Part shown: positions 14,958-52,540 of the stretch, in pieces
Numbering within the stretch: position 1 is the stretch's first letter
How the letters are laid out: the number at the start of each line of letters is the position of its first letter
Source of the DNA: Pomacea canaliculata
Lineage: Eukaryota; Mollusca; Gastropoda; Architaenioglossa; Ampullariidae
DNA: 64,000 nucleotides
Reading direction: 5' to 3'
Assembly (NCBI RefSeq): GCF_003073045.1
Contig: NC_037590.1
Coordinates: 35,534,327-35,598,326, forward strand
Position numbers and translations under genes: made by a program
The notes under the pieces: model-generated
Told to the model about the DNA's origin: nothing
What the model saw: the letters and a program-made list of their open reading frames with translations, nothing else
Databases searched by the model: none

Positions 14958-15343
14958 CCCTCCCCAGCTCACCCTCCCTATCTCACCATCCCTAGCTCAC
15001 CCTCCCTAGCTCACCCTCCCTAGCTCACTCACCTAGCTCACCCTCCCTAGCTCACCCTCCCTAGCTCACCCTCCCTAGCTCACCCTCCCTAGCTCACCTC
15101 CCTATCTCTCCTAGCTCACCCTCCCAGCTCACCCTCCCTAGCTCACCCTCCTATCTCACCCTCCCAGCTCACCCTCCCAGCTCACCTCCCTAGCTCACCC
15201 TCCCTAGCTCACCCTCCAGCTCACCCTGTCCTCTCACTCCCTAGCTCATCCTCACCAGCTCACCCTCCATATCTCACCCTCCTAGCTCACCCTCCCCAGC
15301 TCACCCTTCCTATCTCACCCTCCCTAGCTCATCCTCACTATCT
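14958..15343. repeat. 14-bp minisatellite
   Basis: About 385 bases consist of near-tandem copies of cctagctcaccctc with variants (tatctcaccctc, ccagctcaccctc) and small length changes, roughly 27 copies. One strand is strongly C/T-rich. No gene overlaps it. Confidence 0.95.
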
Positions 15344-28000: not shown

Positions 28001-31000
28001 TAATAAATTCTATTCGCAATCCTGTGGTCGTGCACGTGAGTTTGGAAACCAAGAACGCAAACGGATGGCAACAGCTGTGAACTCTTCTGAAAGCCTAAAC
28101 AAAAAGCAGCATCTTTTAACAGTTCAATTTTTTTTAATCTTTCTGAACCTGTGGTCTGTATAATGCCATTTTCACCTCTTTTGAGTTGTTGAAGTATTTG
28201 TATGTGTCCGCCTAATTGTTGCATGGTATAGTGATAATAGTTGGTGGGCTTCATAGTAGACACTGATGGTGATGTCATTTTCGTCGGTGTATGATTTAAA
28301 TATGTATTAATGCCCTGATATATGCATTTGCTTGTTTTAATGTAAACAAACATAAAACTGAAGCAGAATTTTGTTAGAAGCTATTCATTGACATGTAAAC
28401 AGATGCAGGCATTCTTGTTAAATGGTAACAGTGTTGAAGCCACTGTCCCGACAATGTAAACAAATTGAAAGGCTAAAGATTTATTAAACATTTATTTAAG
28501 CAATTTTTTGAGGAGGAGCTGACGATACTGTATATAGACATAGTCTTTACTTCCTTCCTCAACTTTTCATTGCTATATACGTCCTAATAGTGGATGCCAT
28601 ACTTAGAATTCAAAGATGTCGCATTGAGCAGAACGATGACCTTACTCGTGATGACCATAAACCATCTTTTGTTGCGGGAGGGTGAATATATTTTGTTTAC
28701 CTGTATTTCCTTTAACTGTTTTGGTGCCGAGCAGCCAGTCTTTCGCCGAGTGAGCAGATACAGATCCTGCTGGGAGAAGGCGATGACAGGGATCAGGCCC
28801 CGAAGGTCTTCTGTCAGATGGACGCCTTGGAGAAGCCCACAGAGTCCTACCAGTGGAAGGAAACCGCTAGGTGTGTGTTTGGTCCCTCCACCTCTTGTCT
28901 GTGTTTGTTGTCTGCACGTGTGTGAGCGTGCACGCATGCAATTGTATGTGTTTGTGAGAGACATTATGATGCTTTACAAGCTTACAGGTATACCAAGACC
29001 TCGAAGCAGATGTCGACTTTGAGCAGGCCTAACATCGTGCCTTTTGACCTCTCATCCTTGACAGGTGGGTCAAGTACGAGGAGGATGTGGAGGAGGGAGG
29101 CGAGCGCTGGTCCAAGCCGCACGTGGCCTCTCTGTCCTACATTCCCTCTTCGAGCTGCGGTCTGGACTGACGGCCGGCGCGTGCATGCTGGACATGGATG
29201 CCCAGAACATCTTCCAGTTCGCTGACCTGCTGCTGGATCACATGATCAACAAGAAGTTGCTGGAGGAGGGCCTGCGGGCGGAAGTGCGATCCGCTATCGT
29301 TGCCCAGCATTCCTTTCAGCATGCCAAGCGCCGACGACAGTCCACACCGGACGGAGATGGCGCCGCCATGTTCCGCCGTCTGTCCATGAAGCGGACTCTG
29401 TCGGAGATCGGCCGGTCACTGTCTGTGAAGAGAGGTGAATAATGAATAATAAATATGTCACACCTACTTTTTTTTCAAACATTAAATGCAATGCTATATT
29501 GATGAAAGGTGGACATCTTCAAAGATTTTATTATAGTTCGTGCTTGTTGTTTAGATGCTTCAATATATATTGAGTCTTGTAATTTTTGAAACCTGTGACT
29601 TGGCAAAGAACACTTAGTACTTTGGGGGAGAGTTGTGGTGAGTGGTGCTCATTTCTTGATGGAAATTACATCATGGAATTGCATTGCGTGTTGCTGTCGT
29701 TGCAGACTCCCACGGCTCCATGGCACGCATGCGCAATCCAAACAGTCAGCCCAACCTGGAGATGATGAACGGAGACCTGGTGGAGTCTCCTTCTTCCACC
29801 AGGGTTATGCAGAATAAAAGCCATCATCATAATTAGGTTAAAGTTTGTCTAGGAAAGGCGTTGCTCAAATCATTTTCTGGGGAGGTAGAGGGTCATGACC
29901 TTAATGCTTGTCACGTGGTTCGCTTGAGAGTTTTCTGTATTTTGATAAAGTCCGCATTGACAAGGGTGTAAGGGAAGTGGAGTTGAAGGCGGAGGTGAAC
30001 CTTAGTGCGTTTGGCTCAAACCTCACTGATGTTTTCATATCACTTTTGAGTTCTCTCAATTGAAGGGATAGTTACTAAATGGAGGACTAGGACGGAATAC
30101 GCGCTCGCGCATACAAACTCACAATTAAATATTTCTTCTTTAATAATCGTCGACAGAAAGTAATAAAATAAGAAGGACGAAGAATAGTTTTATTCGCGCT
30201 TTTATTTCGTTCCCAAAACTCTCGTGGTGTGCTCATTCTAGTTTGTTCAGAAGTAAATATAGCTTGGGGCGGAGTGTAAGAGGTTATACAGTCCACGTGA
30301 CACTGAAGTGCTCCCCGGGGCATTAGGTTTAAACTTTGTGCGTCACGTGCTTTTGAAAAGCCGAGCTTTGACCTACTCACCCTTGACTCCAAAATCAGAT
30401 AACTATGTCCCATAACCCAAACGAAAAGAAGAGGGAGGGTTGTAAGTTGAGCAAAGAGAGGGAATGAAAATAGAAAGAAGGGGCAGCGAGAAAAGAGACG
30501 GAGGATGAAAAGAGAACGAAATTATTTTTTTTAATAAGAAATAGACGAAGGGGAGTGGAAAGTTTAGCTTTTTGGTGTTAGTCGTGAAGGATGGGGAGAA
30601 ACTTGTTTCCAACATCGTAGCATTGTCGGTGGTTGAGATGGCAGGCTGTGGGGTTGATATCGTGGTGTGAGACACAGAAGAATGTAGGTATTCGGTTGTC
30701 TACAGCAGCAGGAGGAACAGCCAAGAGGTCGCACGATCTAAAGTAGTTTTTCGCGATAATTGAATTTACATCGCGTGATTACTTGTCTCAAAGCTCTCGC
30801 CGACCCCAGAATACCCGAAAACCCGAGGCAGACATAGTTCTGGCGCGGTGCCAGGAATATTCAGACACGAACTTCTACCGTGCTCAGCATCTCCCAGACC
30901 CTCTCATCACCTAATTGCGTCTGAGAACAAAAATAAATAAATTGGACTGGTAATGGGAGAAAGGGGGAGCGAGGGAGGGATGAAAGTGGAAATACTAAGT

Positions 31001-34000
31001 CGCAACATGCGATGTACACAGTGGAAGGGAACCATTGTACCGTGAAGTTTATCAACCCTGCTCGAGAAGTGTCTTGGTGTTTGAACATCGTTCTTTTCTG
31101 TCTGCAGCTGAACCAGCAGTTCATGCGGAAGATTCCAGAAGGTTCTGAGGCGGCCAACATCCTGATTGGTGAGATGGAGAATCTCAGGTACCAGGTGGTG
31201 GCCTTCGTGAGGCTGTGTGATGCTCGCCATCTCGGGACATCACGGAAGTCCCGGTTCCCTCACGTTTCCTCTTCCTGCTGCTCGGACCCAAGGGAAGTCA
31301 CTCCAAGAACCTGGAGATCGGCAGGTCCATGTCGACCATCATGGTCGATGAGGTGCGTGGGTTGAAGCCTCACCTTTTCTCTTGTAAAACTTGAAAATTC
31401 CTAGTGTGTATCTGGTACAAATTTTATAATTCAATAGAAGGCACTACTATACCAGAGCCATACTAAAACATTTGAGAAAAATTAAATGAAAGGATTTTTT
31501 CTGAAGGGAAGAAAATAAATCAAGTGCTTTTTAAATGTAAGAGAAAAAAAAGAGCTTAATCAACAATATGAAGACAGGAATGAAGAAGATCTTCAAGATC
31601 TTCATCCATCAGTCTCTTGGTTATTGCTCACATTACTACCTGACATGTAACTGTTGGTAGGTGTTCCGGGAGGTGGCATACAGGGCGCGAAGCAGACAGG
31701 ACATCCTGGCAGGAGTGGATGAGTTCTTGGATCAGGTGACGGCCCTCCCACCTGGAGAGTGGGACCCCAAGATTAGAATCGAACCGCCACAAAGTGTCCC
31801 GTCACAGGTATGTAACATTGTTCATTGTCCGTGTGTGTGGGCAATTTTATGTATGGATAGAGATATCAATATTTATGTAACCAGGCTCTGAACACCCTAA
31901 GTCATCATTAGGATGTTAGGTTAGACTTTGCTCGGTGCTAGGATATTCAAACCTTCTTTTCTCTTTCAGGACCAAAGGAAAGCTCCTCCGCCTGCGGCAG
32001 GGGAGGAAAAGGAGGAGGAGGAAGAGGAATCTCACTGTGATCCCACGCTACAGCGCACGGGCAGGTAAGATTCAGTCAGAGAGGAAGGACTGTCATGATT
32101 GTCCACCTGCCTCACATGCCGACTGCTCGACTAATCGCACGCATAATGATAATCAGGCAGAGGATCATCATGGAAATATTTTTTCTAATGTGTCTGGAGG
32201 TTGGGGAAGTAGCAGGTTGAAGAGGAGAGTGTGGATCTTTCGTGGGTCCTGGTTTCGTACTGTGACCCTTCGACCTTTTTAGAAAATGTGAATATGTTAC
32301 TGGCAGATGATTTTTTTTTTCGCAGAAAATGCGAGACCAAGAATGAAAAGTGAAGAAAGTTAAGAACTCACTTGAAGCTTGGACGAGTAAGATTGTTACC
32401 TGTGCCTTATCTCTGTGTGCAGGTTGTTCGGTGGTCTGGTGTCGGACATCAAGCGGAAGCTGCCTTGGTACCCCAGCGACTTCAAGGATGGTCTGCACAT
32501 CCAGTGTGTGGCCTCTGTTATCTTCTTGTACCTGGCCACCCTCACACCCAACGTCACCTTTGGGGGACTGCTTGGCCAGGCCACGGACCAGTACATGGTG
32601 AGGCCTTCACCGGGTTCAAAACCCGACGGTTATGGATGCGTGTGTGTGTGTGTGCGCGTGATGCAAGTGGACACAAGAAAGTTCGGCTGATTGCGAAATG
32701 CACTTTGACTTGCGGAGGACACATTCATGTGAACGGATTTTTTTTAAGCTCCAGCATGTGGCAAGTTTAACAACTGGGAAAGGTCGTTCCAGCGAAATTC
32801 TCTACATATGTCGTGAATTATTAAGCACCACAAGCACAGGAGGGCTGGCTGCTTGTCAACCGCAGATGGCCAGACCTAGCATTAATTCCACGCACCACCA
32901 TGCACTTTCTCTTCCTCCCAACTGTCTCGTTCCATCGCGTGAACTTCGAGACCAAGATTCTCCCGTCCATCCCCTCCACCATCCCAGGGAAAAAACTGTT
33001 GGGTCTATTTTTCACTTACAGAGCATGAAGTAATACTGTGTGTGTTGTGGCTGACTGTCACCTTTGCCATCTTGCAGGGGACCATGGAGTGCATTTTTAC
33101 GGCCTCGGTGGTCGGGGTGCTGTTTGCTCTCTTCGCTGGCCAGCCTCTCAACATCCTGGGCAGCACGGGCCCCATGCTGGTGTTGGAGATGATTCTCTAC
33201 AATTTCTGCAAGTGAGTTGCCCAGCGCCAGGTATGCACTACAACACTGTAGTGTGATTGCCGTTTGATTGCCGTCACGCATCAATGAACACGCATGCTCG
33301 AACATAAGACAGATTCATGGATAGAAGACTTGAATATGCACACAGACGGACATGCAAGTACTTGCGCACGTGCTAACTCCACGATAAAAATAAAACTAAC
33401 GTGTACTCAGTCTGATTGCATTTGTTTTCTTTTTAATGTGTGGTTCTTTTTGTGTGTTGTTACCAGGGAGAACCATCTGGACTTTTTGCCGTTTAGAGCC
33501 TGGATCGGCATCTGGACGACAATTTTCATGCTGCTGATCGTGGCCTTTGACCTGTCGGCCCTCGTGCGTTACATCACGCGCTTCACCGAGGAGTCGTTTG
33601 CTTCCCTCATCGCCATCATCTTCATCGCCGAAGCCTTTAAGAAGCTTTTCGGGATCCTGGACGAGGCGCCGATCAACACGAACCCTGGAGTGAGTAGACA
33701 GGGTTCTGCCATGACAGCTTGTCGAATCAGTCGACACTGGAGTTAGGAACGTTAGGAACGTTAGGAACGTTATGTCAGATTGCCTGCATGTGCGCGCTTA
33801 GAACGTCTGGACTCTAACGGTTCTCTCACTTTGTCTGCAGGCGCCGCTCGACTACGACTGTTCCTGCTACCCGCCCAACACCACCTTCAATGACGGTAAC
33901 ATCACCTTCCCCAACCTGACCGACACAGTGACAACCGTGACGTCACTGCTGCTAGGCGACAACAGCACGAGCGGCGAGATGTTCAACGTCACCGACGTCA

Positions 34001-37000
34001 ACACCACTGACCTGGGCGTCAACTGGACGTCGCTGACCAAGGCCATGTGCAAGGTGAAGGGCGGCGTGCTGCACGGGACTGGCTGCGACACACCCGAGTA
34101 CAAAGCCGACGTCTTCTTCCTCTCCCTCATCCTCTTCTGTGGCACCTACATCATCGCCAGCTCGCTGTCCGACGCCAAGACCAGCTCCTTCTTTCCTTCA
34201 GTCGTGAGTTTTATCAAGTGACCCCACCTTGACCTGAAACACCCACGAGCGACTTGACTCCTGACCTGGACAGACGTGACCTGAGAATAGCTTTCATTCA
34301 AAAACATATCAGCACGGTCGACAACTCAGTCGCTGAACTTTGCGAAAACTGAAAGCACAAACAACCACATTAAATTTATAGGATAAATATAAACAATGAT
34401 ATAAATTTCAGTTTTAGCTTTAATATACAGCTGCCTGTTCAAACCTGTCAGTAGCCTTATCGCATCTCCGACCCTTGTCCACAGGTGCGTCAGACGATGA
34501 GCGACTTCTCGGTGTTGATCGCCATCTTGCTGATGGTGGGCACCGACGCCATCATCGGAATCGAAACGCCAAAGTTGACAGTGCCAGTGGAGTTTAAGGT
34601 CAGTCAGACTCCTTAAATGTTTGTTTGTTTGTTTGTTTGGTTGGTTGGTTGGTTTGGTTGGTTGGTTGGTTGGTTGGTTAGTGTTTTTTTTTTGTACCTC
34701 TTATAAACCTTTTACTTTTAATATACTTCTCAATAATAATAATTATCGTCGTCATCGTATCTGCAGCCTACACGCAATGACCGGGGCTGGTTTGTTAACC
34801 CCTTGGAGTGACAAGAACCCTTGGTGGCTGATCCTGGCAGCGACAATCCCAGCAGTGCTGGCCGTCATCCTCGTCTTCATGGACCAGCAGATCACCGCTG
34901 TCATCGTCAACAGGAAGGAGAACAAGCTGGTGGTGGGTACCTTGCTTTCATCCTTCGTTTGTAACCTCTCCCTTCAAGTAGACCTCTGTTCTGTTCTAGT
35001 TTATATTTTTACTGTATTACTAATTAATGATATTCTCTTTGTGAAAAGTATTTTTATCATTTTGTCGTCTTCTCTTAAAGCAAAAGTCAGATGATGGCAA
35101 CGAAAAAAAAAATCATGGTTGGCTATGCTGGAGGCCATGTGACTGTTAGTGTAGTTGTTTGCTTGATGTCACATTTCAGAAAGGTAGCGGCTATCACCTG
35201 GACATGTTCGTGCTGGCCATCTGCATCCTCATCTGCTCGTTGATGGGCCTCCCGTGGTACGTGGCGGCCACGGTGTCCGCGCTGGCTCACATCATGAGTC
35301 TTAAGAAGGAGTCCGAGTGCACTGCCCCCGGCGAGCGACCAACTTTTCTTGGTGTCCGGTGAGTAGCCCGGCCAGTGAGTGGTGTGGTGTGTCAAATGGG
35401 AAGAGCAGAAGTCAGTCTCTAAGTGTGTGAGGTCTGTACATTTTTTAATGTGAATATGTGTTACAGAATTTTCACAGATATGTTTGTCTTCCTCAGATGA
35501 AAAAAAAATGCATTCGAAGTCAAATAATCCATGTTCTTTGAGATCAGTCACTGACCTTAATCTTTTAAATTTTATTTACGAATGGATCCAGCTTTTGTCT
35601 TCAGAAATAGTAAAACAATAGTTTATACTGCCTGTTGCCTACAGGGAAAACAGACTGACCGCTCTGCTGGTGGGTCTGCTAAGCGGATTGTCCGTGCTGT
35701 TCACCTCAGTTCTTAAGGTTTGGAAATCCGCTTAGAGTTAAATTATTATTGTTGTTTTTTGTTTGAGTTGATATAATCCTGAGTGTGACACAAACCTCTT
35801 ATGATGCAGACAGGACACATGAGAGTGAAGATGGGTGGGAGAGAGATAGAACTTTTTATTTACGAAAATTCTAGAATTAAGGAGTCAGTGTGCTTTTATT
35901 TTACATGTAGACCTTTCTTCTCCAAAGGGAAAGTATGCTAATCTACTACAAAAGCTAAGGGTAGCAGGATAAAACAAGAATGTGGCTTAGGAACACATGG
36001 GTAGACCTCAGTACAAGGGTCACAGGTGTCAGACGGGTGCAGGGCTAACGACTACGATGACTTTGTTGCAGTTTATCCCTATGGCTGTCCTGTACGGTGT
36101 GTTTCTCTACATGGGTGTCGCTGCCCTCAAAGGCATGCAGGTAAACAAACAGCTGTTTAACACCCCGAGTACCAATCGTCTTGATCTACCTCTTTTATGA
36201 AAAAAAATTGATTATATTTTTACTGTGGAAGTTTAGTTGATTATTGTTTTTTTAACTACTTATAAATGTGATATCGTATTATAGTGTACAGTTATAATAA
36301 TAATAATAATAAAAAAAAAATAAATGATAATATTCAATAAGATGGATCGTCTACCTTCAAATGTTTCGTCACGAAAGCTGTTTCTTTTTTCTACAGTTCA
36401 TCGACCGTGTCCTCCTCATCTTCAAACCGGCCAAGTACCAGCCGGACTATATTTACCTGCGTCACGTGCCCATCAAGCGCGTGCATATTTTCACTGCCAT
36501 CCAGGTGTGCTGCCTGGCCGTGCTCTGGGTCATCAAATCGGTCAAGTCCGTCTCAATTATTTTCCCCATCATGGTGAGTGGCTTGTGGTGTCAGATTGTG
36601 TCAGAAAGTGGTTTTATCAACGGAAACCCTTATTTTTAACATTACACATGTGTGATAATAATTTCTTTATTTTAATGTATACAAGGCCGTCTGGCCCATC
36701 AATAGCAAATACATGTGTGTGTGTGTGCGCGCGTTCGTGTGTGTGTGTATGTGTGTGACATCTCGCTTTAGCAGCTGATGTTATGTTGCTGCAACTCTAT
36801 CACAGTCGAAATACAATGCGCGATGTATATTTGTTAATCTCTGGTAATCTGAGTCTTTGCTCCACCATGTTAACATGATACCAGAATTTCGTAAGCATGG
36901 TTAGGTGCTCTCTCCACAAAGAGCATCTGTAAGCTCGAAGAACCTTTTACACACACACACACGTACATATACACTTTCTCTCTCACTCACTCTCTCCTCG

Positions 37001-38889: not shown

Positions 38890-41602
38890 TATATATAAAT
38901 ATGTATATTTAGAACGGCAGCTTATAACATGTCATTGTTCATGATTAGTCCGTAGAACATTCTAGTGGCAAGGTCCCAGTGAAGAAAGGTGAAGGTCTTT
39001 TGATAGCAACGACTGTCGCGTGAAGGCCACAAAGGAAGTGACTGGCACACTGCTCAGTGAGCATGCTGAGTGTTGCTCAGTGAGCATGCTGGGTGTTGCT
39101 CAGTGAGCATGCTGGGTGTTGCTCAGTGAGCATGCTGAGTGTTACTCAGTGAGCATGCTGAGTGTTACTCAGTGAGTATGCTGAGTGTTGCTCACGCCGA
39201 TGTTCCACCAACCGCAGGGACTCATTTCTTTTTTTCCAGATCAGCCCACCTTCTCGATGCCTGCGATGATCAGGCGTTTCCAGATCGATGTGATATTATG
39301 TGCATTTATTCTCTGCAATTTTCGTTTGTTTCATTTTAGAAAAAATGATTGGGAATCTGGTTAGGTGTGATGCTGACTATTTTAATTTTAAAGAAACATA
39401 CGCTACAATCAAGTTTATGTTTATTTCCATGATCGTGGGAGATCACGTGGTCTTTTTTAGGTGGAGTTGGGGAAGATGTCGAGGGTGAAGGTCTTGAGAC
39501 TGGGTGACTGCGCCCTGCTGTGCCTTGTGAAAGTGCCTATCGTTGAATAGTTGTGGTTGCACCTGTGCTCTGCATTCTTTTTTCTTTTGCTGGGCATCCT
39601 GTGTATTTACCTGCCATGAAAAGCTGACTCGTTCAGCGTCTGGAGGGAAGATAGTGTCCATGGAGGACATTGTCCTGGATGTGAAGAGTCACTAACGCGT
39701 GCATCACATCGAGGAGCGGGGTAGCAGAATAAGAAGGGCAGGGGTAGGGTGGGGTGGTGTCAATGACCGAGCTTCTCCCACGTCATAGACAGGCCAGTGC
39801 ATTTATGCCAGTGTTGGTGAACCGTGGAGCAGTCAGGAATCAATCCACGATTTAGCCCGGTTTTTTTTTTTTCTTTGAGAGATTCGAGGTCACGTGATAA
39901 TTAGTCAACAAGCGATACACAAGTCTTCCCACATTCCTGCCCTCCAATCCACCCCAATCCCACCCCTTATTAAACATTACAGTGTTGAGTTATGGTCATA
40001 GTACATCCGGGCTATACGTGGGTGTGCTCGCACTCTTATCTCTCTCTCAGCCATTCACCTGTACACACGCTAGTTTTTACTCTTAATTTCACCTGCACAA
40101 GAGGGCTTGAGTACTAGCAATTATTATTTACATGTCCTTGTTTTGCTCTTTACTGTAAAAAAAAAAGCACAATACATTATGCAATAGTTTTAGAACGAAA
40201 GATGATTCTTGCTTCGTCACACCACACCTCTCTGACCACTGTTGATGACAACCTGTTGGTGAAGGATTGAGTGAGACTCGTGTGTATCATGTCACGTGCC
40301 GGACTGCAGGTAACACCAGGTGATCACAACGGTTTCCGAGAAGTTAAGCCCTCGAGTTCACGTCGACCTCCATCACTGTACTTTAACAGCTAAATGTTTT
40401 CCTATTTGTAAAGGTTTATACCAATGTTTTAATGAAAGATGTTGGCTATTTTATAAGCAAATTACTGTGAGTTGTTATAGTTTTATTTACTATATCCAGC
40501 ATCATCAACACACTATTGTATGTATGGAAGATTGTGTGAGAGAGAGAGAAACTAAGAATTTGTAGGTTCTTCAAGAAATGTACAAGTAGAGAAAAGGGAC
40601 TGTAAATACTACATCACGAGGCCCGAAATATCGGAAATTTAAAAAAAAAAAGATCTGTATGTTTTTAACCTACGGCAACTGAAATGTTGGTTCAGAAATA
40701 ACAGCTATGAGTGACCCTTAAACAGCTTTAAAACATTTAATTTGCTTCTTACACCGATAGAACTGAAAATTCGGTACAGATGGAACTTTGTGTGTATGTT
40801 ATAAAAATATGTCTTAATTTTTGCTGCAAAATAAAATGTTTCTGTTACAAGTGTCCCTTCCATGTGCAAGCTAAGCTCACTTGACATTTTATGGTTCATA
40901 ATGTTTCCCAACCTTTTATAAAATAATTTATATTTAAAACGTTTATCGGATGCTTATTTTAATAATAATCTGACCAAATAGAGTATAGACCTGTATAAAG
41001 AGATCAAAGAAGTGAATTATGAACACGAAATATCAAATAGTTTTGTCTTTATTAGCTCTGTACTATTAGCATATAGTAATTTTTTTAAATAGGTATTCAT
41101 TTATAATCAGTGTTTCATAATCTACAAACTAAACATGAATTTTTTTTCGTTGCTTGGGAAAATCGTTGTTTTTATTTGCATCATTTAGGAAATTTTGAAG
41201 TTTCTTCAAAAAGACAGTATTCACCTGTAAATAACAGATACTCATGTCACCAAACAATTTTTTTCCCGAGGATGTAACAAAATAGTTTTTGGAGAGAGTT
41301 CAGTGTTCATGTGTCATACTATGAGCCGCTTTCATTCCGACTCAGTGAATGGACATAATTTTCATGAGTTTATTTTTCTATGAACCTAGAAAAGCTGTTA
41401 GCAGCTGGCTTTGTGCCTTGATCGACGTCTAAGGTTCTAAGTTAATTAATACATCCTCCTGTACATAATTCCATTAATAAAACTCGAACCGGACAATTTA
41501 CAATTTTCCTGCCTCACAATATTTTACCTTGTACATTTGACGGAAAAATAAAGGAGATTAAAATTTTTGACTGTGTGGCTTTTCTTTTTTTCGTTTTCCT
41601 TT
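38890..41602. other. Region between the convergent SLC4 and Pif-like genes
   Basis: Apart from the 23-bp tandem repeat there is no gene. The stretch 40600-41550 is A/T-rich. There are no conserved frames and no RNA gene that I recognise. Confidence 0.5.
39052..39189. repeat. 23-bp tandem repeat, six copies
   Basis: Six consecutive 23-base units based on gctcagtgagcatgctgag plus tgtt fill exactly 138 bases, with a few substitutions between copies. It lies about 160 bases beyond the SLC4 poly(A) signal. Confidence 0.95.
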
Positions 41603-41672: not shown

Positions 41673-42916
41673 CTACGGGACGCAGGCTGCGAGACTGAAC
41701 TGCAAGAAACATCAGGATAATGCTTGTCAGTACAAGAAGAAGAAATACGAGATGGAGGGATGAAAAAAAGAGAAAAAGAAAAAGTTTGCTTTGTTCTCAC
41801 CTCATCAATCTCACCCCGGAACGGGTGGCCTTGTTGCAGGCAATTGCCGATGGTCAACGGCGCCTCTCTGGGTAACAGCGATCCTTGACAACAGAAAAAG
41901 GACTGATCAGAAATACGAGGGGAAAAAAAGATGCTCGAGAGAAGATATCTGCAGACTTTCTAAGAGGGTATAAACGCATGCAGTGAGGCTCACTCACACA
42001 CACACACAAACACAAATAACAAGTGCAACCAGAGACAGAAAAGCCACATCATCCAAACTTCCAGAAGATGACTCACCGGTCAGAGGCAGGTGTCTCTGTA
42101 TTCCGTTAGAATATCCGATGAGTTTATTGCCGTCGTAGACAAACTGAACATCATTCATGCCTGGTGTCTGCAACAAAAGTAGTTAATTCATGTTACATAT
42201 GAGACAAACTTAGTGAGGGTCTCCGGTAAAACCACATTACATAGCAGGTCGCTCGAATCATCATGAAAGGATTAATGACCAGCTGTTAATCTCGAGCACG
42301 ATTCGCATTTCCTAATCCTATACAACGTAATGCAACATCAACATAAGTAAATACAAACTTAGAGGAACTTTTAACATTAACAGGACATTCATTTATTTGT
42401 GTAGGTCTCTTTCTCTAACGACTGTCTGTTTCGATTTACAAGTCCAGTTTTTCCAGGTAGGAATTTCTCGCACTATGGATAAAGCGTTACCCTGTACCAT
42501 GGTATCAAAGGTAAAGAGAGGTAATGCGGGTGGGGTAGAGAAGCGGGTGGAACAACTGTAATCCAAATTAAATATCATAGCCCATAAACTAAAACGAAGC
42601 TCATGGTAGATTTTCCACGTGGAAAAAATATTTCATTAGCCTGCGCGCCAGGGTGTGTGAGTAGGCTTCACAATCACTGCTGTGTGGTTTCCCCTCTTTT
42701 CTTTGGTCACGTGCCATACCCAACTCACAAAGTGTGAGGACGGGCCCAGCCTCTCTCAAACAACCTCACGTGCAGTGTGAACTCACAGCTGGCAGGGTCA
42801 GGGTAGCTCCAGATGTGTTGCTGGTAGTCCTGAGGGTCAGTCGCACGTTGTTCTCTGTAGCTTGCAGCAGGAAGGAGGGTGCATCCCCCCATTTCCCAAT
42901 GGCATACAGTTGCCTA
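41673..42916 (-). CDS. Pif-like LamG domain, C-terminal half, and protein C-terminus
   Basis: Exons 42787-42916, 42077-42167, 41801-41865 and 41673-41699 supply the strands missing from the earlier half: LYAIGKWGDAPSFLLQATEN, VRLTLRTTS, DVQFVYDGNKLIGYSNGI, LPLTG, LTIGNC and FRGEIDE. The DG-x-NG and F-x-G-x-IDE pattern is typical of LamG folds. The last exon adds FSLAACVP and a TAG at 41673-41675. The acceptor of the 41801-41865 exon is a weak cagag that I chose because it fits phase 1. Confidence 0.8.
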
Positions 42917-45900
42917 CTATGTCTTCATACATGGTGATGCTCCTTTTCAACCTTCACATTCCAAAACAAAAAGCGGCGGGAATGCAAATAAAATGACATA
43001 TTTACAAAGGAAAGGAAAGTGTTTCTTTCTTGCTAATAGAGATCACTACAAATGTACTTCACAACTATTTAAAAATTACAAAGGCACAGATCAAACATTG
43101 CTACTCAGCTGTTTTGATTTCCTCAATCATGAAATTACTTTTGAAATTAATAGTTAATCCTAATGCAAGACTGCTTTTTACATGCCAAGGTTTTGTTCAT
43201 TCCAGGATTGTGCACGGATAAAAATTCATATAATCATACCTGCTTCCACTGCCAGGATTGGAAGAAGGCATAAGCGCCCTGACATCAGCAGGGATCTCGC
43301 CACTTCCACTCCTGACCGTGCCATCCGGCATAGTCACCTGCCAGGACCGCTTCACCTGACCCCCTCCACTGACGCCGCTGCTACCAGATGTCAAGGCTAA
43401 AAGGTCGGCGGGCATTTCCCCGACACCTGTGCGCCGTGTGCCATCGGGCATGACCACACTCCACCGTCGTTCCGTCCTCCCGCTAGTACCTGCGTTTATC
43501 ATAGCCTGCAGATCCGCCGGCATCTCCCCTTCACCTGTCCGCAGCGAGCCATCTGGCATCCTCGCGCTCCAACTTCTTTTTCCCGAGGCGCCAGCGAGGG
43601 AGGTCACGTCCGAGGGCGTGTCCCCACTTCCGGTCCTCGCCATTCCGTCGGGCATCGTCAGGTTCCAGCGACCTCGTCTCCTGACAGCCGCGTCTCCAGC
43701 AGAGCCTGACTGTGCAGACAGTCCACGACCCTCCACGTGTCCAGAACCTCCTCTCGCGCTCAGCAGAGACTTCAGGTCGGCAGGCATCTCTCCCACACCC
43801 GTGCGCTGCGAGCCGTCGGGCAGCGTCACGCTCCAGTGACTCTCACCTTTGACCGAGGCTTGGCCAGCTTCCAGGAGGGCCTGGACGTCAGCAGGCACGT
43901 CTCCAGTGCCGGACCTTACCGAGCCGTCAGGTAAGGTCAAAGTCCACTGACGCTGAGTGGCTGTTGCACCCCGACCATCACCCGCGCTCTCTGTCGCACT
44001 CCTTGGCCCTTGGACTGACTTCTGCTTGGCGCCTGTGTGTTGATGACCCCCCTGACTACCTCTGTTCCCAACCCTGTACCCAAGGTAGTTGGATCCTGAC
44101 GTTTGAGCGGCATCCCCGCCAGCAGGTGACCCTCCGGTCATGTGATGCAAGGCCGCCTGACAGCAAAAGCAAATTTACTGCCACACCGTGATAAACAATG
44201 TTTCTAAATTCTACTTCTTAAAAAAAGAAGCTACATAAAAAGTTCGATTATTAATGAAAATGCAAAACATTTCCTTATAATAATTATTGGAATTCTTTAC
44301 CAACCTTGAAAACGTCTGCTGGCGGTTCGCCGATGCCGCTAGAGAGGACACGCCCATCCTGGCTCATCAGCTGCCATCCCCGGGTTCCATGCGCCTGGTG
44401 AGACTGCTGTACGATTGTCACCTCCGAAACGGATTTATAGAACTCAGGTATCTCCTTGGGAACGATTCCATACCCAGAATTCAACACTTTTCCGGTAGAG
44501 TCAATTATAAACCATCTGTAGACAGCAGATCTTCAAATGCGTTACCTGAATACACCATGTTGCTAGATAATATGTTCAAATTTAATAGAAAATCGTTCTG
44601 TTAAATTCTTGTGATATAAGAATCTTCTTACATGTCTGAAGACATTGTCAATACCATACATAAAAAATAGTTTACACAATTGTAAATATTGGCAAGAAAC
44701 TTTTCAATTTTTAACAAACCTTTCCTGTGTCGCAGTCTCCGTGCTTTTACTGCCGCCGGATTTGTGAAAAAGGTCCTGCAGGTGATCAGGAATCTGGCCG
44801 TGGCCAGTCAGGCGAGTGCCATTGGATAAAACCACCTCCCACGTGACGTTGGTCGTGATGACGGGCAGGACGATCGAGCCCCGCACAAACTGGGTCACGC
44901 CAGAGGGCAGGCTGCCAACGCCCTCGACCAGCGTCGATCCGTCTGCGCGTTTGATGCTCCAGATGGCGCCATCGACGCCTGCGTCCGACTGCTGCAGCAG
45001 GACGCCGGAACGCAGGTCGCCATACTTGCTGAGGACATCTGCCGGCAGATCGCCGGAACCGGTTGCGAGAATCTCGCCGCCTGAGGACAGCACCGCCCAG
45101 CGTGTCACTGATTTCCTTTCAGACGACAGAACTTGGTCAAGCTTCAACTGCTGTACGATGCTGGCGGGAATTGACCCTTGACCGCCTGTTGCATTGCTAC
45201 CGTCAGTTTTGGACAGTTTCCACTCCACCACCTCAGGGCCTACTGTTTTTCACTTCCAGCAGTTTTCCTGCAACAAGACATAACATCCGAGTTATTTATG
45301 GAACGCGTTCAGGAATCAAAGACAATCTCCAGCTATCACATTTTTTCAGTAAAACTTTAATTTTCTTTAAAACGCTGGATCTTCCAAACTGCTGCTAGTT
45401 TCAGAATCTGAGTTTGTTCAACATACCTGGAGCGAATCCTGCATACAGGTTCCTAATGTCGTCGGGAATGTTTCCGATGCCAGACTTGATGACTTTGCCG
45501 GTGGGAAGCATTATGAACCAGTGTGATGTCGGCGAAGCTCGCAGCTGGAAGCTGTACTGGCTGGCCACATCAGCTGGCACCTCCCCTGACCCAGATCGCA
45601 TAACTCTACCGTCCATGCTTACCACCTGTCGAGAAGTCGCCACACAAAACTCATGAGACTGCTAAGTAATGACCTCGGCGGACTTCGAACCCATCCTCTG
45701 GTGATAAGCTAGTCGTCGCTAAGGGACTGATAATGATGTTGATGTTGACTCTTACAGGTTACAGCAATAATTTAAAAAAAAAAACAGTTATGACTTCCAA
45801 GTGTCACCACAAGTTACCTGCCAGCTGCCCAAATCGGCGCGTGATGGGGCCGGAGTGAGGACAAGGAACTGGCCCCGCCTGTTGGGCACGAAGACCACGC

Positions 45901-48900
45901 CCCCTGACACTGTAGTGTCGGTGATGGTTGCCATGCTGCCCAAGTCCAACATGGTCATCTCCTTGCCACCATCGGGCCAGGTTCCTCCCGCCGTCTTGCC
46001 AGCGTCCTGATGAATGACCGAGCCGTTGGGCAGGACCATCAGCTTCTCGAGAGCAACCGTCTGCTGACCAGAGGGCAAGACTGGGTCAAGTCCTTGATCT
46101 TGCACCTCTCTTCCGATGAATGTTACGTTGTGCTTGGTGGCGGTCTGGCTGTCGAACCAGTCCTGAACAAAAGTCAGTAAATAAAAATAAAATAATAGTT
46201 ACTAGACGATTTCCTTAACATAAATAAAATTACAGTCTACCTTTGATTGATGGCCAAATGCAAGTAGCCTTATTGACTGGGAGCGCAGTTTGTGGATTTA
46301 GCAGTTTACGAAGCGACTTACCTGGAACCCCCAGTTATAGTGATCATTCCAAATGAAGTTTGAAGGACTGCTGTGGTTGCAGACGATAACGGAGATGGAG
46401 AACAAACTTATTCGAAAATGGTCAGCAGGCAAAGTGTTAATCTGCACTCGCCCGGAGCCATTGAAGTAGGCGGTGCCATGCTGGCTGAAAGCCACGCCTT
46501 CTGCGCGTGCTGGGTGACGTTGCAGAGACTGATCCTCCACAGAGCCATCAAACTTGATGTGAAGAGAGGACTGACAGCCTGGACATACGAAAAAACTAAT
46601 CATCGATCATCAATCATCATCATCATCATCATCAACACCACCACCAACAACAACAACAGATGAAAAGATAAACTACAAAATTAATTATTTGATGCACGTA
46701 GCAGTGCTGACGAAGTCAGATAGCAAACCTATTGCAACTGTAGATTCACAGGCGCACTGACTGTGTCTGTACACCTGTGCCTGGACGACAGGGACGAGTC
46801 ACGTGACCCTTCCCTGGAATCAGCTGGAGATAGTTGTAGACACTGTGTGGATCAGGCCGATATTCACAGGCACCTGTTAACAAAACTCCATATAATTAAA
46901 CGAGCTGTTATTTTGTGATGTGTTTGATGGCTAACATATATATAATTTTCTTTGTTCATTGATCATTAAAATAAGTATTTTAAAAGCATCTATTTCAGTC
47001 GAAAATGAGGAAAAAAAAATGAATAAATAAGCTTTAATTAACCAAATTAGAGGTATGATGGGTACTTTGAGAATTTCAAGCAATGTTTACAAAAACTTAA
47101 ACATTCAAGCAGAAAGCATGGAACCTCAGTTTTAAAAGTACACAAGTTCCGACGCGCTGACATATTGTCTCTAATTCATTTTTATTTCTGATAAATGAAA
47201 AAATTTCGAAACCAATAATGTACAGCCAAAACAATGTGCAAATATGATCATAAAACAGACCAGTGTACAGGAAAAAACATAGTACAAACAATGAGAGCTA
47301 AATTCTTTGGGTTTATTCCTGATTAATGAACAAATTTAGAAGGGCCCCATTGACGAAAATTGAGAGTCCTCCAAACTTTTAATGTGCAAACTGTACGCAT
47401 ACAATAAGCAAGAAACAAGCTACAGCAGACGACAAACAGACAGACATGGTTCATTTCAGCAACTGTCAGGAATAATCAATTGAACTGTAGCTTGCAATGT
47501 GTCACTGACCGCTGGCCTGCAGTGTCCACTCCAAAGAACAAGCATCTCTACAGCTGGCATCCGACACACAGCCGCCATCTTGGCTGTAGCGATGGCCTTG
47601 CTGGCAGCACTGGGGGACCGAGCGCCCTCCTCCACATGTCCAGTACTCGCCACACCCCGCTGTCCCGTATTGTGAGTCCAGCCCTGAGGTTGTCCCCGAC
47701 AAGGGTCTAGAGAAACAGAAACAGCGGTAATAGGTATGGGGTGAGCAGTCAACCAGTGGCCGGGACTAGCATGTATCAGGGTTAGTGATTGTCAGTGATT
47801 GAGTGAAGGGGGGTTCACTCCTCATTAACACTATTCTTGTGTACGAAATCGAAAATAATTTATGCATCAGTTGTCTCTGGACAGTTCTGGAAACATAAGC
47901 TACATCCACACTTGGGTACCTGAAGGGCAATCCACAAACAGGGCGTCTAGACAGGCCACTGCCTCGGAGCTCCAGTAAAGACCGAAGGGACAGGAAGTGA
48001 CCACTGGCTTGTACCCGCCGTTCTGCGGGTAGCAGGTCACGTACTTGGTGCAGTCGGGTGGATAAGAGTTGTATCCGACCCCGCCAACCTCCAGACACTC
48101 GCGACACAGCGCTGCATGCAGATTACAGAGCATCAGATCACCACTGTCTCAAACCTTATTTACATTTATTATCAAAGCACTCGATTCTCTGCCTCACAAT
48201 ATGTGATTGAAAATAACTAAAATGAAGTAAAGTAGATATTTCTACTGTTATAGATTTCACGTCTGAGTGCAAAGTGGCAAAAATTATACTTTTTAATTAA
48301 AATTGTGCTGACACTGATTAGCAGTTTTTCTGCTCTCCCTTGATGTTTGTTTGTTTGCCGGATGTCTATTGTCAGCTGTGCCATTAGGACAAATTTGTAG
48401 ACGACGGTCGTATAAACATTTTTTATATTTAAACATGCAGGGTTAGCGAGTACTTACCGGGTATTGACGGTGTTGTAGACACAGTAGGAGGCGGGATCGT
48501 TGACACAATGACTGAAGCGATCGTGAACACAAACAAATACACTTTGAAATTTAAAGTTTCAACACAAATACAGCCCTTGTTTGAAGGCTTTAAATAAGGT
48601 TAATAATTACAGATATTTTTGTATCTACGGGCAACTGCCTACCTCACAGCGACTTTGCATATTGTTTATGACATGAAGCACGACTGAAATTTTCATTCAG
48701 ATTTCATGTAAATTGGTCATTTGAAAGATTCTCTCTAGGTCAGGTGTACATGCCTTTCAATGCTTCCTATACAGAATCAGGTTATAAAGTCGAATGGGTT
48801 TTCACTGTCCTCTTACCCTCGCAAATCTGGTCTCGGAGCGTTTCGACGATGTCGATGAGAGCAGAGAAGTCAGAGACGTTGAAAAGAGTCGAAGGTGACG

Positions 48901-51900
48901 AGGCCATGGCCTCCAGCTCCGTCTGCAGGGTGCGCTTACCCACCCCGATGACCAGCATGACGATCCCACTGGCAGTCTTGGCCAGGCTGGCCTCAGACTT
49001 CGTCTGGTGGACGTTGCTGGACTTCCCGTCGGTGATGACAATACCTGAGTGAAAAGGAGTCTAGAATAAGCATTAACTCGCTATCATGTCTTTCTTTCAC
49101 AAAATTTCACAAATCGTCATCGGGGTGTTTATCATCATCGCCATCATCATGACATCATCCCCTCCTTTTGTGACCAACCTATATGGGGAATGCCTGGTCG
49201 TCCGTGCGTGGCGAACATTCCCCGCAGCGCTTGCAGGCCCAGGGCCGTGTTGGTGCGGCCCAACGGAGTCTGTCGCAGCCCCGACACCCTCCTCTTCAGT
49301 TCCGCCTTGCCAAGGAACGGCTTGATGGGGATGGTGTCGCCCACGTTAGAGCTGTACACGATGATGCCCACATGAATGCCCTCGTCACCCACCTAACACC
49401 AGAAACCACACGTGAGGTCGTCGGTCATATACTGTGACTCTTGTCGTCATTGCATTTGGGGGCTTATTTAATGACATTCCAGCAGTTATTACTTTAACGA
49501 ACAAAAAAACTCGACAACGTGGTAAGGTATAAAGAAAAGGGGAGGAAAACGACTTATGATTATTTTTTTTAAATACCTGAGTCAGCAGACCTAGAGTGAG
49601 ACGTTTGTCAAACAGGTAGAAAAAGGTGTGCTAAAATAAGGTTCAAGTATTTAACTGTTTAAATTTATTGCTCTGTGTTTTTTTATCTCCACTACTCCTC
49701 TCTATCTCCCTCATCTTCCCCTTCCTCTGTCTCCCGGAAGCGGTTGATCTGTCACATAAAAGTAAACACAGCAATGGCTGAATCACCTCCAGACTATTGA
49801 TGAGGGTAGAGACGAAGATGCGCCCTCTGTCCCAGTCTTCCGCTTGGATGCTGTGCGAACCATCCAGCAAGAACACGACATCAGCTGGCTGCTGGCACGA
49901 GATGGCTGCAACAGACCACATGTCCATCAGGCCTTGCACGAGTCACGTGACAGACTGCCGAGAGCTGCAGAAGACTCGGCACAAAGCCCCTCATTTAAAC
50001 AATTACTGCAAAAAGCTAAAGAAACTCAGCAGATGTTGCACAAATCTTGTATTGTTGAGACACCTGACGAGCAGCAGTTTTTTTTCTACCTGTCACATAG
50101 GGGTAAGCAACTTGTGGCAGGGCAAGGCAGCTTTACTGATTATGACATCGGCAGTCAGTATAACTGGTTTGTGACACTGTCAGTCGAAGCCACTACAACA
50201 CCAGTGAGGTATTCAATGCAACGCCTGTAGTCTGAGATCACGAAGCCAGTAAACTATCTCAGGGTGTCCTCAGCAGGGTTTGAATGTAAATGATGCTCAA
50301 GAAAGATTTAGTCAAAATACCTGCAGGAATATTAGAACAGAAACCTATAAAGCTTGCGACGAGGTTAGGAAGCAAAAAGTCTAGTTTAACCTGTTGAACA
50401 ACCTTTGCAAAAAAAGAGTGACATAATTAGAGATGTCTTTAGAAAATCACTTCATCAGCACAGACAAAACACAACCTTCTTAGCAGTCCCTTTTAACTGG
50501 ACACATGTTGTGGAATATTTAGTCCTGACACTCGTATACAAACTAAATAAAGATCGCCAAGTCCCGTAGTTGACAATGTCTGCTCGGGTAGAGAGGTCCT
50601 TGTCTCAGCACGAAGCTGGCTGGTACAGGTGACTGTTAACAAACTCACGTGGTAAGTAAGGTGTTGTTGTTGGTGATGGCTCCACTGTAGTTGCGGTAGT
50701 TGGTGGGATCGTTGGTTCGAGGCTGGTCATCGGTACAACTGAAACAAATATCTTATTTTTCCTGTTTGATGTCATTCACTTACAGGAGGAAGAGGAGGAG
50801 CGTAAAACGTATGAAGTGTCTTCCATACCCTGCCATACACAAATAAGAAACCAGTTCCCACACTGTGATCTATTTAAAAAAAAAAAACCACCCCACCACC
50901 ACCATCAAATATAAACATATTCAGAAACAAAACTAATGACCAAACGGTATGCACGCGACACACTCCAGACGAATCTCGAACATTTCTGAATAGCCTCTGA
51001 CAAAGTTCAGAGTCAGACCAAGAAGGTTCATGCCACAATCGTAAAACTTTTAAGATAAGCAGTCCGGAGATAGGATGTTCATTCCAAGCCAACCTTTGCA
51101 GATGAGGTCACTGATTTCCTGGACAACGTTCTGGAGCTGAGTGAAGTCGCTGACCGTGAAGAGACGGTTGTGGTTGTGGTCCTTCGGGGCGATCTCTTGA
51201 AGCTCGTCCAGGTAGGTCTCATTGCCTACCCCCAGGGCGATCATGGTAATCTTTTCTACCTGCGGAGTGAGTAGCACCTTTTAAGTTGTTGTTTTAATCT
51301 TTTAGGGTTTTGGTTGCTCGTTTGGCGAAGTCTTGACGAATATTATTCGGACTGATGACTGATTATTAGGCGATCGTTGCTTCCTTTTGCGAAGAGTAAA
51401 TCGACGAGTTTTATGAAGCTAAACATGAACATGTCCCAAACTTTATTTAGTATTCTACATAGAGGTATAATTTATAAAGGGTGCATCTGCCGGATATGAC
51501 AATTTACTCTTACCCCGTGGTACAGAGCTGTCATTGTATAAAGAATGTATATTCAATATGATAGGTGCTGAACCTGCCTTCTGAATTCTGAAGCCATTCG
51601 TTCTAACCATTAGGCTATCATGTATGTATGATTGTATACAGGTTGTACATTGTGTATCCAGGTCTTACTGTACATCTGCTCTTACCGTGCGAGCGTTGAG
51701 TGCCTCTTGAATGGTCTTATGGACGTCATCAGACCGGCCGTCAGTGATAACGACGGCGATGGGTATGGCGCCAGGCCGGCCCTGGTTTGCCACCATAGAC
51801 CTCATCCGAGCGACAGCAAGTGCTGTGTCTGTGCCTGCAACAAGAAGCAGGTGCTGAGACAGGCAGCGAGACCTTCTGGGCGATGTCTAAATATTTTTGT

Positions 51901-52540
51901 TTTATTTTACGACTGTAGGTTCGCTCTTGAACTCCAAAGCTCGTCAACTCACCCTGACCATCCTGTTCGAGTCCCCGTAGCATGGCCTTGAGCTGCGTGC
52001 GCGACTTGAAGGGTTGAAGGTCGATGACCTGCCCGATGTCCGTGCTGTACACGATGACACCCACGTGAATAGCGCGTGGTCCGACGGCCAGTGAGTCGAT
52101 GAGGTTGGCCACAAATTCCTTCTCTTGTTGCCACTCGCCGGGCTTGATGCTGCCCGAGGCGTCCATCAGGAAGACCACGTCAGCAGGCATGTCACAGCGA
52201 ACCACTGGCAGCACGTGCAGGGGCAGAGCGGTGAACATAAGTGTAGCATTACTTTTTTTTTTTTTTGTTGTTTTGGTGGGTGGGTAGATATGAATCCATG
52301 GCACTCACATTTAAAACATGCGTTCATCCCCTCTTTCACACTCCTGTTACGTCATGTCACGTCACATAATATCGTGTCACATTCCAACGTGTCATTCTAC
52401 ATCACTCACATCACGTGAACTTTGCTACTTTTAGAGTTCAGGTAACATAAAATCACACCACAAACTTACTCTGTTGTGCCGAGAGAGGAGTAACCGTTGA
52501 AAGCAGCATGACAGCTCCAAACAGTTTCGCTGCAATCATT
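41673..52540 (-). CDS. Pif/BMSP-like shell-matrix protein with internal Trp-led repeat array (gene span, 22 exons)
   Basis: This is a secreted, probably extracellular-matrix protein. Minus-strand exons from the start: 52471-52540, 51953-52204, 51686-51834, 51094-51259, 50649-50738, 49787-49905, 49179-49392, 48817-49044, 48458-48511, 47920-48111, 47510-47706, 46775-46873, 46322-46578, 45818-46162, 45427-45625, 44720-45267, 44305-44515, 43240-44156, 42787-42916, 42077-42167, 41801-41865, 41673-41699, totalling about 1,540 codons. Domain order is signal peptide, VWA, Thr/Pro linker, VWA, linker, peritrophin-type chitin-binding domain, Cys-rich segment, first half of a LamG fold, about 740 residues with 14 short repeats, second half of LamG, short tail. 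VWA-chitin-binding-LamG is the layout of molluscan Pif/BMSP proteins, which bind chitin and calcium carbonate. The acidic C-terminal part of nacre Pif is not seen. Two exons are off by one base. Confidence 0.87.
43240..45625 (-). repeat. Coding array of 14 Trp-led repeats in the Pif-like protein
   Basis: Exons 45427-45625, 44720-45267, 44305-44515 and 43240-44156 encode 14 copies of a motif of about 24 residues. Each has a WxVxMPDG-like half and an RTGxGEMPAD-like half, separated from the next copy by Ser/Gly-rich spacers. The first eight copies (in the three smaller exons) are diverged, for example WFIMLPTGKV with IPDD. The last six, all in the 917-base exon, are close to identical: WTLTLPDG, WSVTLPDG, WNLTMPDG, WSARMPDG, WSVVMPDG and WQVTMPDG, each followed by a GxGE/D-xP-AD half. 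Exon 44720-45267 carries one extra base in the CCC run just before the stretch PEVVEWKLS. I do not recognise the motif as a named domain. Confidence 0.85.
45660..45712 (-). repeat. Degenerate tRNA-like fragment
   Basis: The minus strand carries TTAGCGACGACTAG (box A-like) and GGGTTCGAAGTCC (a good box B) about 25 bases apart, in a Pif-like intron. No convincing acceptor stem is seen; it may be a SINE relic. Confidence 0.3.
45818..46162 (-). CDS. Pif-like spacer exon before the repeat array
   Basis: This 345-base phase 0-0 exon has no family I recognise. It contains LMVLPNGSVIHQDAGK and later TWPDGGKE, which could be a decayed copy of the downstream repeat, and ends GSW-Q, so the first clear repeat straddles its 3' junction. 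Its open frame, clean splice sites and matching phase support it as coding. Confidence 0.75.
46322..46578 (-). CDS. Pif-like LamG domain, N-terminal half
   Basis: This 257-base exon encodes SSLHIKFDGSVEDQS, then GVAFSQHGTAYFNGSGRVQI and a strand reading FRISLFSISVIV. These are the first strands of a laminin-G-like jelly roll of the kind found after the chitin-binding domains in Pif. The remaining strands do not follow here; the exon continues into NHSSPSNFIWNDHYNWGFQ and then into the repeat region. Confidence 0.75.
46775..47706 (-). CDS. Pif-like Cys-rich exon and second chitin-binding-like exon
   Basis: Exon 47510-47706 encodes a Cys-rich segment (CGEYWTCGG, QCCQQGHRYSQDGGC, DASCRDAC). It must enter and leave in phase 1, but its length of 197 is one base short, and its first codons (DPCRG) lie in a different frame from the Cys-rich part. 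Exon 46775-46873 (99 bases, phase 1-1) encodes CEYRPDPHSVYNYLQLIPGK and RPCRPGT, consistent with the second chitin-binding module that precedes LamG in Pif proteins. Confidence 0.7.
47920..48111 (-). CDS. Pif-like peritrophin-type chitin-binding domain exon
   Basis: One 192-base phase 1-1 exon encodes a compact chitin-binding type 2 module with the expected six-cysteine spacing plus one extra cysteine at the start (ALCREC). Recognisable parts are YPPDCTKYVTCYPQ, VTSCPFGLYWSSEAVAC and LFVDCPS. The aromatic residues around TKYVTCY and GLYW fit sugar binding. Confidence 0.88.
48458..48511 (-). CDS. Pif-like second Thr/Pro linker exon
   Basis: This 54-base phase 1-1 exon encodes STIPPPTVSTTPSIP, resembling the first linker exon and joining VWA2 to the chitin-binding domain. 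Confidence 0.7.
48817..49905 (-). CDS. Pif-like VWA domain 2 (three exons)
   Basis: Exons 49787-49905, 49179-49392 and 48817-49044 encode a second VWA domain. It has DGSHS after DVVFLL, GRTNTALG, and ITDGKSSN as MIDAS elements, then IVMLVIGVGKRTLQTELE and LRDQICE. The split positions differ from VWA1 in detail, but the first junction again falls after the INSLE/SLAV helix, so tandem duplication is plausible. Phases are 1-0, 0-1, 1-1. Confidence 0.92.
50649..50738 (-). CDS. Pif-like Thr/Pro-rich linker exon between VWA domains
   Basis: This 90-base phase 1-1 exon encodes a Thr/Pro/Val linker (PTIPPTTATTVEPSPTTTP), a likely site of O-glycosylation. Confidence 0.75.
51094..52204 (-). CDS. Pif-like VWA domain 1 (three exons)
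   Basis: Exons 51953-52204, 51686-51834 and 51094-51259 encode a von Willebrand factor A domain. The metal-binding MIDAS elements are present: DASGS after DVVFLM, a GTDTAL threonine segment, and ITDGRSDD. The domain closes with ITMIALGVGNETYLDELQ and VVQEISDLICKG. Flanking cysteines (VRCDMP and LICK) fit a disulphide-closed secreted VWA. All phases agree (1-1, 1-0, 0-1). Confidence 0.93.
51558..51621 (-). repeat. tRNA-like sequence in a Pif-like intron
   Basis: The minus strand begins ATGATAG and ends CTATCAT, a perfect 7-bp acceptor-type stem. It has a box A-like TAGCCTAATGGTTAGAACG and a short box B-like AGGTTCAGCACC. At 64 bases it is short for a tRNA and the T arm is degenerate, so a SINE head or tRNA pseudogene is more likely than a working tRNA. 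Confidence 0.4.
52471..52540 (-). CDS. Pif-like exon 1: signal peptide
   Basis: The ATG (complement of 52538-52540) opens MIAAKLFGAVMLLSTVTPL, a hydrophobic stretch ending SAQQ at a plausible signal-peptidase site. The donor A/gtaagt leaves phase 1, matching the first VWA exon. Confidence 0.8.

Follow-up and report, generated by a model that had tools for sequence, protein, structure and literature searches.

A minus-strand gene in the window analysed here, a 64,000-nucleotide stretch of the Pomacea canaliculata genome, encodes VWA domains, chitin-binding domains and two putative LamG (LG) parts, and between the LG parts lies an array of 14 units of a 27-residue, Trp-led repeat. A split LG domain with a long insert is known for the Pif/BMSP family of shell proteins (PMC11291548, in its available sections); its filling by Trp-led units is the unusual part. 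On balance we think that the gene product is a BMSP-like secreted shell-matrix protein, in which the array would form a string of mini-domains that loops out and engages in many weak contacts. Within this well-studied family of shell proteins the LG insert varies greatly, and it is located in the carbonate-binding half of both Pif and BMSP. An insert built of repeated, apparently small folding units would be a compact, expressible module for probing the role of this slot, and lets one ask whether acidity is needed for mineral control or repetition is enough.

Gene structure and reading frame

The gene comprises 22 exons (A to V, all on the minus strand), with its start codon at 52539 and its TAG stop at 41673; the introns, 101-743 bases long, are GT-AG in 21 of 21 cases. 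The encoded order is SP-VWA-VWA-CBM_14-CBM_14-like-LG, the signal peptide having been recognized by eye. This order is that of the Pif/BMSP family, and the preliminary description of this DNA had already called the protein Pif-like.

That description had also assigned five in-phase exons totalling 2,220 bases to the array, which does not hold. The acceptor at 45267 that this length implies for exon P leads into an in-frame TGA 11 codons on (by eye), and the open chain, which uses the acceptor at 45242, is 2,195 bases long. Since this length leaves a remainder of 2, skipping of the array would put the LamG C half out of frame. The acceptor at 45242 scores -1.5, versus 10.1 for that at 45267; those of exon S (-4.7) and exon U (-2.0) score lower still. 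The acceptor of exon Q scores 2.9, and a stronger one (7.2) located 30 bases upstream (44545) gives in-frame stops by eye.

Exon K (47510..47706) has 197 bases where the phase needs 198, and the frame at its start differs from that at its end. The break is unavoidable in the full-length exon; a shorter version that uses the acceptor at 47659 (score 2.0) is in frame by eye, minus the first Cys. The break is most simply explained by a sequencing error in a short G run, though it may be a real lesion.

This frame break, together with the in-frame stops that follow the strongest acceptors of exons P and Q, would fit a decaying gene copy or a faulty assembly, in which the array and the LamG C half do not end up in the same protein. 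We regard this as quite improbable, given that the other 21 exons read open with the chosen acceptors over a coding length of 4.6 kb with canonical splice sites, that the chain ends together with the LG domain and an AATAAA (41629) follows about 44 bases further on, and that runs of four G and five A, places where sequencing errors are frequent, lie next to the breaks at exons K and P.

The shell-matrix gene has a tail-to-tail neighbour in the exons of an SLC4-type bicarbonate transporter (29062-36636, plus strand). Band_3_cyto or HCO3_cotransp was matched by 8 of the 10 ORFs scanned, the unmatched two lying elsewhere, at 58 and 61 kb. The pairing of transporter and shell-matrix gene may be a coincidence. 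Between the two, positions 39051-39194 hold 6.3 copies (95% matches) of the 23-bp unit TGCTCAGTGAGCATGCTGAGTGT, and a 14-bp minisatellite with 29.1 copies (82% matches) of the unit ACCCTCCCTAGCTC is located at 14957-15345.

VWA and chitin-binding domains

Exon A (52470..52539) provides the start Met and, judging the translation by eye, a signal-peptide-like N terminus. The first VWA domain is encoded by exons B-D (51094..52204; Pfam VWA, E 5.1e-37) and the second by exons F-H (48817..49905; E 4.7e-35), with by-eye DxSxS motifs reading DASGS and DGSHS, respectively. The two domains are 44% identical to each other, and the first matches 26 distinct PDB sequences at E<=1e-10, including proximal thread matrix protein 1.

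Two chitin-binding regions follow. Exon J (47920..48111) encodes a chitin-binding peritrophin-A domain (CBM_14, E 1.7e-05; 25.3 bits, above the Pfam cut-off of 22.1), while the second, Cys-doublet domain in exon K is chitin-binding-like (CBM_14, E 0.1; 13.2 bits, below the cut-off). By the bands given in the available text of PMC11291548, the E values of both would fall in the CBM_14L1 class. Exon K contains the Cys doublet (VPQCCQQG) in its reading frame, and PMC3374290, as far as its accessible part goes, describes such a doublet for the second chitin-binding domain of Pif/BMSP. Exon L (46775..46873), by eye a two-Cys linker, connects the chitin-binding and LamG regions.

The location of VWA domains in the N-terminal part of a putatively secreted protein (secretion signal by eye), the CBM_14 and CBM_14-like domains downstream of them, and the Cys doublet in the second of these all agree with Pif/BMSP proteins. 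The two tandem VWA domains likewise agree with the gastropod form of BMSP, though they are non-diagnostic because Lgi236719, which lies outside the BMSP clade, also has two (PMC11291548, same sections).

The putative split LamG domain

On the single minus-strand chain, the candidate LamG N half is followed by the five array exons and then by the LamG C half. The C half opens in exon S (42787..42916), where the Laminin_G_3 match begins at position 45 of 151, and continues to position 139 through exons T (42167-42077), U (41883-41801) and V (41699-41673), the last of which carries the TAG. Two of the C-half exons first proposed, 42787-42916 and 42077-42167, stand as given; the exon near 41.8 kb starts at 41883 and not at 41865, and the last exon had been overlooked.

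The proposal of a split LamG domain itself fared differently for the two halves. The C half matches Pfam Laminin_G_3 (E 2.4e-05, 25.0 bits) under the cut-off of 27.6, and 530 of 2000 shuffles match the published Pif C fragment as well as it does. The N half (exon M, 46322..46578) matched no Pfam family at E up to 1 and no NCBIfam family at E up to 10. Exon M is nevertheless a candidate for the N half by its position, by the motif LHIKFDG...D.S...AYFNGSG discerned by eye, and by a match, though a modest one, to the LG N fragment published for Pif, with which it has AYFNG in common and which 12 of 2000 shuffles match as well.

The LamG parts are separated by 731 residues, a correction of the roughly 740 given initially. 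That an array has grown inside a LamG loop stands as regards the split loop, but the emphasis on the split was misplaced: an insert at this place is usual in the family (PMC11291548), and what sets this one apart is its content. As reported in the available part of that study (Shimizu et al. 2024), 34 of 50 Pif/BMSP proteins have LG N and C parts, 2 of the 34 have a complete LG, and the conserved LG parts are credited to Suzuki et al. 2013. The inserts range from 138 to 1,438 residues, and are characterized there by their composition and low-complexity stretches, being Asp-rich in Pif and containing Thr- and Gly-rich low-complexity stretches in BMSP.

Anatomy and conservation of the repeat array

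The count of 14 Trp-led repeats was confirmed exactly in the five exons between the LamG parts. The insert starts in exon N (45818..46162), which ends within unit 1 (W at 45823). Exon O (45427..45625) contains the remainder of unit 1 (to 45554) and unit 2 (45520-45443), exon P (44720..45242) contains units 3 (45222-45145), 4 (45099-45022), 5 (44961-44884) and 6 (44841-44767), and exon Q (44305..44515) contains unit 7 (44514-44437) and unit 8 (from 44376), the final residues of which lie in exon R. In exon R (43240..44156) a G/S-rich linker is followed by units 9 (43946-43872), 10 (43835-43761), 11 (43667-43593), 12 (43571-43497), 13 (43463-43389) and 14 (43343-43269). An arrangement of one exon per repeat is ruled out, as the units ignore exon borders. 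All 14 units share the W, the turn Gly, the two Gly of GxG and the Pro without exception.

A profile built from units 9-14 alone was run over exons N-Q, with 1000 shuffles as the control. Units 1, 2, 4, 6 and 8, five of the eight held out, scored above the best shuffle (21.2, 6.0, 13.1, 8.1 and 5.9 bits, respectively, versus 5.3), the matches for units 4 and 8 spanning only about a dozen residues. Units 3 and 5 scored below the best shuffle (1.2 and -1.9 bits) and unit 7 was unreported; a match of any kind occurred in 538 of the 1000 shuffles. The repeat units are thus beyond chance. The profile of all 14 units recovers 14 of 14, the next six-frame match in the window having an E value of 0.61, versus 1.2 for the best shuffled frame.

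Among units 9-14, 70% of silent sites and 30% of replacement sites differ (dS about 2.0, dN 0.38), and among units 1-8 the figures are 71% and 52% (dS 2.2, dN 0.90), with the reservation that the comparisons between units are not independent of one another and that dS is close to saturation. The protein sequence of the unit has been kept while its DNA drifted. A young tandem amplification of DNA is ruled out because the silent sites are near saturation.

Other features were noted within the array exons. In exon N, the stretch EKLMVLPNGSVIHQDAG resembles half a unit minus the Trp; it scores only 1.1 bits with the profile and is possibly a decayed fifteenth unit. In exon R, the basic sequences RRRGRW and RTERRW precede units 11 and 13, respectively. 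By analogy these might be protease sites; the precursors of Pif and BMSP are each cleaved into two proteins (PMC3374290, PMC11291548, both in their accessible parts).

Predicted fold of the unit

AlphaFold2, given the 14 units as an alignment (32 residues), predicted a strand-strand-helix fold with a mean pLDDT of 81.9 and a pTM of 0.40. For a two-unit stretch (9 rows), the unit fold appeared twice, with a mean pLDDT of 76.7 and a pTM of 0.35. The alignment rows of both models come all from one gene, and the models were run without a shuffled control. The low pTM of the two-unit model is compatible with separate beta-beta-alpha beads. The conserved Trp is likely to form the core of the mini-fold, rather than an exposed ligand contact.

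In Foldseek searches against solved structures, neither the single-unit nor the two-unit model had a match at E<=0.001; at E<=10 there were 101 and 596 matches, respectively.

Searches for relatives of the repeat

The preliminary description knew of no named domain matching the repeat and suggested profile searches as a check. Exons N, O, P, Q and R matched no Pfam family at E up to 1, and searches of Pfam, NCBIfam, PHROGs and the PDB placed the array in no described family, the weak matches being read as chance. Among NCBIfam models (E up to 10), exon P matched a flavodoxin model (E 2e-4; 21.4 bits versus a cut-off of 160 bits, the best stretch being 19 residues long), and exon R matched two surface-protein models (E 0.14 and 0.2); all three were read as chance. 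Exon R matched six PHROGs families, the best being tail-tube (E 8.7e-07), with no stretch passing alone, which was read as summed weak repeat matches; exons P and N matched no PHROGs family. A profile search of the PDB gave 43 sequences at E up to 10. The best was PkwA, a WD-repeat protein (E 9.4e-05), followed by matches at E 0.0048 and 0.038; no stretch of the PkwA match passes alone, and it was read as chance.

Bacterial genomes yielded 60 pattern matches and no relative of exon R, and plasmids yielded no match; both searches reach close relatives only. No such repeat in an LG insert was found in searches of the open-access literature, and none appears in the available portions of PMC6003135, PMC13394694 and PMC7142155. 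The repeat sequence may well be present, though unremarked, in published gastropod data.

Function of the array

In the mechanism that we propose, the array fills the insert slot of the family between the two LG parts, which most likely pair into one LG sandwich; the start of the C-half match at position 45 of the 151-position Laminin_G_3 profile is among the points in favour of the mechanism. The 731-residue insert would then loop out, its 14 beta-beta-alpha mini-domains of the predicted fold strung flexibly together. The protein would be anchored to chitin through its chitin-binding domains and would bind other matrix proteins through its VWA domains. The bead string, sitting in the slot that is part of the carbonate-binding half of Pif, could provide many weak repeated contacts, be it through self-association or with a matrix partner or a carbonate surface. 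Most likely, the array would serve the chitin-anchored matrix protein as a multivalent scaffold that loops out from it.

The composition of the insert bears on what these contacts might be. Its 731 residues include 69 acidic and 66 basic ones and no Cys, with a pI of 6.6, and G, S and D make up 14.5%, 11.5% and 5.9%, respectively. The mineral- or chitin-contact module suggested initially is unproven, the insert being neutral and without Cys, unlike the Asp-rich insert of Pif. According to the available text of PMC11291548, Pif80 contains a partial LG and the insert, and both Pif80 and BMSP100 bind carbonate. The array itself could be imagined as the calcium-carbonate-binding part, doing the job of Pif80/BMSP100, with PDG turns and E/D-x-P-A-D helix caps aligning weak acidic crystal contacts. 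The slot is the same as that of the insert of carbonate-binding Pif80, and BMSP100 binds carbonate as well, though the low-complexity stretches in BMSP inserts are rich in Thr/Gly and not in Asp. The near balance of acidic and basic residues, the pI and the low Asp content nevertheless make this unlikely: the analogy with Asp-rich Pif80 is weak because the insert is neutral, and the composition speaks against an acidic mineral binder of the Pif80 kind.

The W-to-W spacing in the array varies from 32 to 94 residues, and the units appear separate in the two-unit model. Both points would suit a passive, extensible spacer, in which the units merely keep the loop compact and protease-resistant between its chitin-bound and partner-bound ends. 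Unit residues are conserved over nearly saturated silent sites, which argues against a mere spacer, though a folding constraint alone could suffice to conserve them; we hold a spacer to be a minor possibility.

Beyond the preferred scaffold reading, we put forward tentatively, and at less than even confidence, that the 27-residue unit represents an undescribed, disulphide-free and apparently metal-free beta-beta-alpha family, and that the variable LG insert evolved in this lineage from disordered sequence to folded beads, giving an ordered modular organic scaffold in a mineral-facing slot.

Comparison with Pif and BMSP proteins

Proteins combining VWA, chitin-binding and LG domains have been termed 'ancestral Pif', retained in bivalves, gastropods and brachiopods (PMC10543319, in its available part). 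The tandem VWA domains, a BMSP trait, suggest that the Pomacea protein is nearer to BMSP than to Pif. It resembles the BMSP subfamily (M. galloprovincialis BMSP and L. gigantea Lgi140660) in its tandem VWA domains, its CBM_14 and Cys-doublet domains, and the long insert parting the putative LG domain. BMSP is described as having three or four VWA domains (accessible text of PMC9635652); bivalve BMSPs differ from the Pomacea protein in having four rather than two, while the Lottia BMSP-clade protein Lgi140660 likewise has two in tandem (PMC11291548). The inserts differ as well, with Thr/Gly-rich low-complexity stretches in BMSPs and 14 predicted folded, Trp-led units here (PMC11291548).

The number of chitin-binding domains in limpets is given differently in the available sections of two studies. 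The second domain is inferred to have been lost from limpet BMSP in PMC7747718, while it is predicted in all limpet relatives by Mann et al. 2012 (PMC3374290). The Pomacea protein has two, the second below the cut-off, and thus keeps a domain that limpet BMSP has lost by the former account; this, like the figure of three or four VWA domains, counts against a BMSP assignment.

Pif (Pinctada fucata Pif97/Pif80) is similar in having VWA and chitin-binding domains and, as is probable here, a split LG domain, and by eye a comparable strand precedes the insert, with VFIKMKYKED ending the Pif N fragment and FSISVIV at this place here. Unlike the Pomacea protein, Pif has a single VWA domain and an insert rich in Asp, Lys and Arg, whereas the insert here is neutral, with G/S-rich linkers and predicted ordered units. 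The single VWA domain and Asp-rich insert that mark the Pif subfamily are therefore both lacking, the D content of 5.9% comparing with 21-26% in Pinctada and Unionida (PMC11291548, as available). Another gastropod shell protein, Haliotis laevigata idb_25730, resembles the Pomacea protein in its VWA domain, two chitin-binding domains, ConA/LG-like domain and repeats, but differs from it in having TSP1, one listed VWA domain and G/T repeats (PMC6003135, in the part available).
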